Positions 23,201-26,200 of a stretch of 64,000 bases of DNA are shown here, one piece after another. Each line of letters begins with the position of its first letter. Position 1 is the first letter of the stretch. The notes beneath the pieces were generated by a model. The model did no database searches. It had not been told where the DNA came from and saw only the letters and a program-made list of their open reading frames with translations. Source of the stretch: Protonemura montana (Eukaryota; Arthropoda; Insecta; Plecoptera; Nemouridae); contig OX387604.1 in the NCBI GenBank assembly GCA_947568835.1, positions 17,079,076-17,143,075 on the forward strand, written 5' to 3'. The translations under genes were made by a program, and so were the position numbers.

Positions 23201-26200
23201 ATTTTAAAATTTGAAAGGAATTCAGAAAAATTAAAACCGATCACAAGTTACCCCTGCTTCTGCAAGGCCGGATAGCCTAAAATAACCTTGATATTTATTT
23301 GAATATTATGGACAGAAAGTTAACCAACAGCAACTTACTGCTTGTTTCAGAATGTAAAGAAACTGCTGGCTGCTGGCATTACTGGGCCAGAGGGTCACGA
23401 ACTCTCGCGCCCAGAAGACGTCGAGGCAGAGGCCACGAACCGAGCGTGCGTGATTGCCAATCAGGTCAGATCAAAGTTTAATCCTGCAATTAGCAAATCT
23501 GTACCTAGTGTGCATGCATAGAAAATTGGAAGGAGTTTCCATTGCATGACCATGCAAATTTCAGCATTTTGGAAGATTCTAAATTTCACTGAATCTCATT
23601 GCATATGTTTACATAATTTGTTTTTTATTGCTGAATTTAGATAACCCTTTATACGCATATATTTAAATCAGTGGATGAAATAAGGATTCTATTAGCATCT
23701 GGTTAGAGGTATACACTTTTAGCGTGGTCTAAATTTACTAAGCACGATGTGTGACATTTTTGCAATGCTGATTTCAGCAAGAAAATTATAATTCCCTTCT
23801 TATGCTGGAAGTATAAATCCAGCAATGCATGAATATGCAACATTTCATTTTTAGTATTATATCTTACTGGTAAATCCTAAAACACGTCAATTGTAAAAAT
23901 GGTAATAATTCAGAAGATTGATTATCAAATTCCTATTTGTGCATGGTACTTGCAACATTTTTGTATGTAGTTAGTAGTATCTGGTAGTATCACAAGTACT
24001 CTACACTTCTTACCAGTTTCCTTGCACAATTACTGTGTTGTTGATTGCATTCCACATTAATTAAGTAGTTGTTGTGTTGGCTTTGCATGCATTTAGGTGA
24101 CTTGCCCCCTGTATGTAGTGCATGTGATGAGTAAGTCGGCCGGAGACATGATCGCTGCGGCTCGATCCAATGGGTGGCAAGTGTATGGGGAGTCAATCGC
24201 CGCTGCCCTCGGCACCGATGGGCGAAACTATACCCACAAGTGCTGGAACCATGCGGCATCTCACGTGCTAAGTCCTCCTTTGCGGCCAGACCCAAGCACG
24301 CCTAAGCATCTGATGGATCTACTCACCAAGTAAGGCTGACTTAAAATTAGCCTTTTTCTAGAGGGATGGATTTCGATTTCGGTGTCTTTGGGAATGAGAG
24401 TATACAAAAGGTTTGAGGAATTCTCTATAGATTAGTATTCTTTGCACTTGGGAAATATTTGGCTACATTAACTACTTATTGACTTATTTCAATTGTTTCT
24501 ATTTGTCAACATTTATCTCGGTTCTTTGTCCTTGCTAAGTTTGGTGATGGACTTAAATAATCTGTGGGTGACCTAAATATACAAAAAATATGTGCGTACA
24601 GGCTAGAGAAAGACACAAAAAAAAAACACGCTTCTCGTCAATAATCGTGGTTCCAAATGCATTAATCTTTATGACCAGTAAGGACTTTTGTGCAACTTTT
24701 ATTGAGTCACACTCTTATCTGTACCTGCCAAAATTAACTCTCAACTTGCAGTGTAAATTGCTTGCTTGATAAACCACATAGACATCTCCCAGTTACAGAG
24801 CTTGTTGGTATGTGGTATGAATGTGGTGTTGGTATTACACAGGTGAATTGTCCACTCTATGTTGTCCGAGTGATGAGCAAGTCTTCTGGCAATGTGATCG
24901 CCAATAAGCGAAGCGAAGGGGCGATCGTTTATGGAGAACCGTTAGCGTCATCTCTGGGAACAGACGGTAGTCACCAGTGGAATAAATGTTGGCAACATGC
25001 CGCCGCTCACGTGACCAGCCCTCCTCTGCGCCGTGACCCCTCCACGTCCAATCAGTTGCTGGATCTGCTAGCTTCGTAAGTTCGGGGTCGTTCCTCTCTC
25101 CAGTCTCCTGACCCTGCATGGCTTAATTTGTTGTCATTGGTTTTCAAGTGTTTGGACATTAATACTTTTTATTAATTCAATTAACATTTGTTTGTCCTTT
25201 TTGATTTTGTGGTTACAAAGTTAAAAATGTGGGGTCCTAATGTCATTATGTGATCTTGTCACTGTATGTACTAGGAGCGGATGGGAATCGGTATTTTTAT
25301 TTGAACTTGTTTATTTCATGAATGTATGACAATTGATGACTAAACGGCGATGACTATGAACTTTGTGCTGCTATTTTACATAACTTATGCTAGTATGCAA
25401 CTTTTTTGCTGTTATTAATTCGCGATGCCTTCTTCCAGGCACCTTCAATGTGATAATGAATTAATTACTTGTTGATCATGTTTTAATCATCTTTTTCCCA
25501 CCATCATTTCAACTTTAATAATGAATTGATGATGAACCTGCTACTGCAACAGGATTTGTAGAAATATTGAGTGTTTCTGTTTATTTGTGTAATTTATGTA
25601 ATGGTCTTCACAGTGCATTTATGAAGATATTAAAGATATTTAATGATAATTAATGATAAGGAATTTTGGAAGAACCCAGTTTCTAAAAACAGAATTAGTT
25701 GGACGTATGTATGAAAGAATTTTATTACTAAATGAGTATTTTTTAAAGAATCTTTGTTGTTTGTACAGTGATGGTCTTCAGCTGACCGGAAGTGACAACT
25801 GCACATTCAACACGTCGCAGAAAGCTCTGGGCAAAGATGACTTCTCCAAAATTCCCAATGGCGTAAACGGAGTTGAAGACCGTATGTCCGTTGTTTGGGA
25901 AAAGGGTGTTCACTCTGGCAAGATGTCACCTCAAAGATTCGTTGCTGTAACCAGCAGCAATGCCGCGAAGATATTTAACATCTATCCACGAAAGGTATAA
26001 TAATAGTTATGAAAATTGCATAATGTCATCAGGAACATTATACCAGATAAAAAGACAGTCAACTTCTTAAAAGTAGAAAATAAAAGTATTCAGTATACTG
26101 TAATATTTCAACCAAGAAGTATACAACACATTTTGTTCAGTCTTATGGGAGGAGGTAGTCATTAAATTTATGAAAATCATTCATGTTATAGGAGCCTCTT

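Follow-up and report, generated by a model that had tools for sequence, protein, structure and literature searches.

A dihydropyrimidinase/CRMP gene of Protonemura montana with a probable mutually exclusive exon pair that exchanges one zinc ligand

The dihydropyrimidinase/CRMP gene and its surroundings

The window analysed here, a 64,000-nucleotide stretch of the Protonemura montana genome, contains an intact dihydropyrimidinase/CRMP gene on the + strand (all coordinates refer to the window). When the coding sequence was rebuilt from the exons in the window, it ran from an ATG at 18820 to a TAA ending at 29920. The spliced gene has 13 coding exons altogether, 12 of which are used in each of two isoforms (A and B), and the spliced translation is open over 597 aa for isoform A and isoform B alike. 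Exon 1 (18820..18858) carries the start codon and runs from phase 0 to phase 0. It is followed by exon 2 (21253..21421), exon 3 (21782..21892), exon 4 (22329..22456), exon 5 (22579..22758) and exon 6 (23351..23464), which leaves in phase 0. An intron of 632 nt (23465..24096) precedes exon 7A (24097..24329), the dihydropyrimidinase version of exon 7, and the CRMP version, exon 7B, lies at 24843..25075. Exon 8 (25769..25994), exon 9 (26285..26395), exon 10 (26635..26790), exon 11 (28312..28555) and exon 12 (29838..29920), with the TAA stop codon, complete the gene. The C-terminal tail is encoded by exons common to both isoforms and is identical in the two.

We searched the genome (258.5 Mb, 34 contigs) with isoform A, allowing E values up to 10. 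This gave 16 matches; 12 were exons of this gene and the remaining four scored at most 25 bits. No second dihydropyrimidinase/CRMP gene was found in this search. A weak match on contig C1 was rejected as a second dihydropyrimidinase, reading by eye as a dihydroorotase, and one weak match on C14 was rejected likewise, reading as an allantoinase. The other two are a second match on C14, 6 kb off (16.9 bits), and the weakest of all, on C2 (12.7 bits); identities were read for two of the four weak matches. At the DNA level exon 7A is single-copy in the genome, as is its upstream intron, and a scan of viral contigs gave no relatives of the gene. Since no other such gene was found in the genome, any dihydropyrimidinase and any CRMP of this organism must, assembly completeness permitting, come from this one gene.

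Several other elements lie in the window. A transposon-like element of 3780 bp (14462-18241) ends 579 bp upstream of the gene's start codon. Its terminal inverted repeats extend over at least 80 bp with zero mismatches, with TTTA on each side, and it holds a single ORF of 689 aa (15562-17631) with no Pfam match. Of 350 candidate copies of the ORF DNA in the genome, 40 were scored, so that full-length copies number at least 40. The present copy is among the 38 that share the highest score, with 100% over 2070 nt. The element is apparently the product of a very recent burst. Inside intron 10, in the stretch 27293-28167, AGTGGCGTAACTA at 27293 recurs as its reverse complement at 28155, perhaps marking a second short inverted-repeat element. 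Further downstream, two ORFs (59066-59599, 177 aa, and 61588-62307, 239 aa) have no Pfam match and are possibly exons of another gene.

The exon pair 7A and 7B

The original prediction described two adjacent 233-nt exons coding for one protein segment, and its coordinates proved right to the base when we read the sequence and translations. The acceptor AGs lie at 24095-24096 (7A) and 24841-24842 (7B), and the donor GTs at 24330-24331 (7A) and 25076-25077 (7B). Rebuilding the spliced gene also bore out the predicted phases, with both exons entering in phase 0 and leaving in phase 2. A 233-nt exon leaves an incomplete codon, so that using 7A and 7B together or neither of them disrupts the frame, as the prediction also had it, and in each case the spliced translation meets a stop at the junction. 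With 7A and 7B together, the first stop is codon 326, a TGA directly past the 7A/7B junction; with exon 7 skipped, it is codon 248, a TGA with which exon 8 begins. We infer that transcripts with both or neither exon should be targets of nonsense-mediated decay.

Exons 7A and 7B are identical at 144/233 nucleotides (62%) and 49/77 residues (64%). By codon position, identity is 50/77 at the first, 66/77 at the second and 28/77 at the third, and the NG86 estimate of dN is 0.31, with dS undefined (saturated). The saturated third positions, the dN of 0.31 and the pattern of identity across codon positions indicate that the duplication is old and that both copies are, on this evidence, constrained at the protein level.

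This bears on whether 7B is a decaying duplicate, leaving a gene that makes the enzyme only. We regard this as scarcely credible. The one feature of the exon in its favour is the acceptor, where the longest pyrimidine run is 2 in 7B, the shortest among the gene's twelve acceptors, against 4 in 7A and 3-10 in the others. The pyrimidine fraction of the acceptor fails to set 7A (0.62) or 7B (0.50) apart from the ten others (0.44-0.75). Against decay, 7B is open over all 233 nt, its splice sites are intact, its phase is the same as that of 7A, and 64% protein identity has been kept despite saturated third positions; there is also the fly precedent discussed below. On the strength of phase, splice sites and codon-position pattern, we rejected 7B as either a chance ORF or a decaying exon.

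Metal site and relation to known enzymes and CRMPs

Codons and alignments uphold the predicted contrast at the zinc ligand, a His in 7A against an Arg in 7B. The residue concerned is residue 256, encoded by CAT (24121-24123) in 7A and by CGA (24867-24869) in 7B. The five further ligands are all encoded by exons common to both isoforms: H75 and H77 (GGIDTHTH) by exon 3, K167 and H200 (VHAENG) by exon 5, and D334 (GSDNC) by exon 8. K167 is the carboxylated Lys of dihydropyrimidinases. We take these six to be the ligand positions of dihydropyrimidinases in general, and they agree with our alignments to the structures 2vr2 and 4h00 as well as with PMC4051505. In the same alignments to PDB 2vr2 and 4h00, isoform A has the complete ligand set of H, H, K, H, H and D. 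It thus shares its six ligands with vertebrate dihydropyrimidinase, although the vertebrate enzyme has a separate gene.

Isoform B has lost one of the six ligands, the fourth ligand His, and kept the other five. The switch had been described as a single catalytic residue. This stands in so far as a ligand His is replaced by Arg, but it is too narrow a description, as 28 of the 77 residues differ between 7A and 7B. Vertebrate CRMP1-5/DPYSL likewise have a residue other than His at the position of R256. The loss of the metal centre to the degree found in vertebrates, where four of six ligands are gone, is not seen in isoform B, with one of six gone. Human CRMP-4 keeps two of the six metal ligands according to an excerpt of PMC4051505, and in our alignments, the same as for 2vr2 and 4h00, CRMP2 also has two of six left, with Lys at the R256 position. 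With five of six ligands retained, against two of six in CRMP-4 and CRMP2, isoform B is, judged by its ligands, far nearer an intact enzyme than vertebrate CRMPs are. It may still hold metal.

A comparable dual-function CRMP gene in Drosophila had been invoked in the original prediction, and one is indeed published with the same exon logic (PMC8652244, in excerpt). Drosophila CRMP (Morris et al. 2012, Genetics 191:1227) has paralogous, mutually exclusive exons 9a and 9b (excerpts of PMC8652244, PMC7954323 and PMC3650022). The excerpted text of PMC8652244 describes 9a isoforms as exclusively non-neuronal and 9b isoforms as exclusively neuronal; the conserved histidine lies in 9a, and pyrimidine catabolism was supported by the 9a-type isoform only. 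In the fly, and by prediction here, one gene supplies both functions through a paralogous pair of mutually exclusive exons; in both, the exon with the His (a) precedes the one without it (b). The P. montana gene is an orthologue-like counterpart of Drosophila CRMP. The two cases differ in that the results on tissue and activity come from the fly alone.

Reading the switch as a zinc-ligand residue therefore holds for the His/Arg pair here but not as a novelty, since a 2021 report, in the excerpt of PMC7954323, already has the zinc-binding His of the fly isoform PA replaced by Gly in PB, at 'residue 192'. The fly replacement is thus Gly at 'residue 192', whereas here it is Arg at residue 256. 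The two numbers would agree if one of them was counted relative to the domain; in human numbering, 192 is presumably the His of VHAENG, which here sits in the shared exon 5.

Against the TIGR02033 dihydropyrimidinase model, isoform A scores 596.9 bits and isoform B 587.4 bits, both above the cut-off of 393.25, and isoform A scores 748.7 bits against 2vr2 and 738 bits against 4h00, both vertebrate dihydropyrimidinase structures. To compare the two exons themselves, we measured likeness as the bit scores of 92-residue pieces, given here as 7B/7A. These were 113.5/97.9 against CRMP2, 106/95.8 against CRMP1, 104.9/94.9 against DPYSL3, 106.2/93 against DPYSL4 and 68.6/71.7 against CRMP5. Relative to 7A, 7B thus gains 10-16 bits on CRMP1, 2, 3 and 4 and loses 3 on CRMP5. 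Against human dihydropyrimidinase the two are about equal (131/129.4). On the 4gz7 dihydropyrimidinase 7B scores 13 bits lower (124/136.8), and on the 2ftw dihydropyrimidine amidohydrolase 9 bits higher (95.6/86.3). The bacterial enzymes are mixed, at 37/53.7 (5ykd), 26.2/37.6 (1k1d), 50.4/50.5 (3dc8) and 48.6/45.3 (4tqt). By these scores, 7B appears just modestly more CRMP-like than 7A, and since the 2ftw score rises too, its gains on the CRMPs may reflect kept ancestral residues.

These results could also be read as describing two enzymes, with 7B tuning the metal centre or the choice of substrate and no loss of catalysis; a mono-metal or altered site in isoform B could act on another cyclic amide. 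Five of the six ligands lie in shared exons and isoform B passes the dihydropyrimidinase model, in contrast to the two of six ligands in the CRMP-4 of the PMC4051505 excerpt. We nevertheless consider two enzymes improbable, given that in the fly the 9b isoform, when tested, did not support pyrimidine catabolism (PMC8652244, in excerpt) and that vertebrate CRMPs are without dihydropyrimidinase activity (as stated in the excerpt of PMC4051505).

The reading we prefer is that one transcript unit very probably yields a predicted dihydropyrimidinase or a predicted CRMP through a mutually exclusive exon 7. Isoform A, with six ligands complete, would be the dihydropyrimidinase of pyrimidine breakdown, as extrapolated from the activity of its fly counterpart. 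Isoform B, where Arg replaces the fourth ligand His, would have lost dihydropyrimidinase activity, again by analogy with the fly, and would be the neuronal CRMP if its tissue use follows that of the fly. The central claim of the original prediction, a gene making an enzyme or a signalling protein by exon swap, is supported as far as sequence goes, by exon length, phase, junction stops, the ligand and the presence of a sole gene in the genome.

Candidate regulators of the exon choice

The sequence around the exon pair is rich in TGCATG, which would be read in RNA as UGCAUG. Five copies lie on the + strand in the intron before 7A, at 23511, 23543, 23826, 23940 and 24084, and the last of these (24084..24089) is 7 nt upstream of the exon. 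Another lies 39 nt downstream of exon 7B (25115..25120), and a further copy within exon 7A (24119..24124) overlaps the His codon. The copy across the His codon is absent from 7B and may be due to chance. The intron between 7A and 7B contains none, and the rest of the gene contains one, in intron 1.

The motif was spotted by eye before statistics were run on it. The + strand of the window has 30 copies, of which seven fall within the 2304 nt of 23465-25768 (binomial p 7.7e-5), and the introns flanking exon 7 hold 6 in 1838 nt against 1 in 7236 nt of other introns (p 0.0004). Dinucleotide shuffles of the 632-nt intron contained 0.61 copies on average, and only 2 of 5000 reached five. TGCATG is the hexamer of this intron most enriched over the window, among those listed, with a Poisson probability of 7e-6, or about 0.03 when corrected for 4096 hexamers. 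As a genomic control we took 20 stretches of 10 kb from the same genome, on both strands. None of 600 control bins of 632 nt had more than three copies (the intron before 7A has 5), and none of 160 bins of 2304 nt had more than four (23465-25768 has 7). In a panel of 13 splicing patterns, no other matched the contrast of TGCATG, and the CELF-type TGTTG was moderately denser before 7A, at 6.3 per kb vs 1.5 in other introns.

A second kind of candidate site lies beside the acceptor of 7A. Here TTGTTGTGTTG (24069..24079, + strand) agrees, if the base after it is included, with the worm UNC-75 (CELF) site in 11 of 12 bases; it occurs once in the window and zero times in the background stretches (20 x 10 kb, same genome). 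The sequence UUGUUGUGUUG, resembling the worm UNC-75 site, adjoins the last TGCATG before the acceptor. The genome encodes an Rbfox-like RRM, found as two exon pieces on contig C1 (84% and 88%), with query residues 26-39 unmatched there.

Rbfox sites downstream of an exon promote its inclusion. More generally, Rbfox binds UGCAUG with an effect set by the position of the site upstream or downstream of the exon (PMC8742874, in excerpt), and repression from upstream sites has been demonstrated for egl-15 exon 5B (excerpt of PMC3585155). By this position rule, UGCAUG before 7A and after 7B predicts that 7A is repressed and 7B favoured in cells with active Rbfox. A parallel is the C. elegans gene unc-32, where neuronal choice between exons 7a and 7b is made by RBFOX proteins at UGCAUG and by UNC-75 (CELF) at UUGUUGUGUUGU, as described in the excerpted part of PMC3585155. 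Both genes have a mutually exclusive exon pair with UGCAUG and an UNC-75 or UNC-75-like site, the regulation of the present gene being predicted. They differ in that unc-32 is a different gene and has its sites in introns 7b and 7a, whereas here they lie before 7A and after 7B.

In our search of the open-licence literature we found no paper tying Rbfox to the CRMP exon pair, which is no proof of absence. Among the matches listed (15 of 448), only PMC8652244 has both Rbfox1 and CRMP, and its excerpt treats them apart. Under the search terms used, we met no mention of the gene in PMC3303723 or PMC3228551, two papers about mutually exclusive exons.

The exon choice may equally be real without being set by Rbfox, depending instead on another regulator, on RNA structure, or on competition between the exons with decay of the wrong products; we give this an even chance. 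The broken frame and junction stops alone would clear products with both or neither exon, and since TGTTG is denser before 7A, a CELF protein alone could suffice. What speaks against it is that, of the hexamers listed for the intron, none is more enriched than TGCATG. RNA structure in particular appears less likely from a repeat search of 23465-25768, which gave 9 direct and 13 inverted pairs, the inverted ones short or imperfect, and no common docking/selector set. Nor does steric exclusion fit, as 513 nt of intron separate 7A from 7B, more than it would allow.

Control by Rbfox, for its part, is a tentative proposal, to which we give somewhat less than an even chance: Rbfox, possibly aided by a CELF partner, may throw the switch from enzyme to neuronal protein by acting at these candidate sites. 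Clustering of TGCATG is by itself no proof of binding, and the sites are putative. Under such control, Rbfox, perhaps together with a CELF protein, would block 7A in neurons through the UGCAUG cluster before and inside the exon and through UUGUUGUGUUG by its acceptor, and the UGCAUG 39 nt past 7B would promote the CRMP exon in the same cells. Mis-spliced products with both exons or neither would stop at the junction and be lost to nonsense-mediated decay.

The dual-isoform arrangement itself is already known from Drosophila. The single-gene solution of the fly very probably holds in this organism too, whose chromosome-scale genome yielded no second such gene, whereas vertebrates use separate genes. 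What is new is that a candidate regulator of the switch can be put forward by name, together with defined candidate sites, and that the predicted isoform B is one ligand short of an intact metal centre, unlike vertebrate CRMPs. If Rbfox does throw the switch, the same pair of regulators would act here as on unc-32 exon 7 in worm neurons, and the neuronal level of Rbfox would be converted directly into the loss of one zinc ligand.
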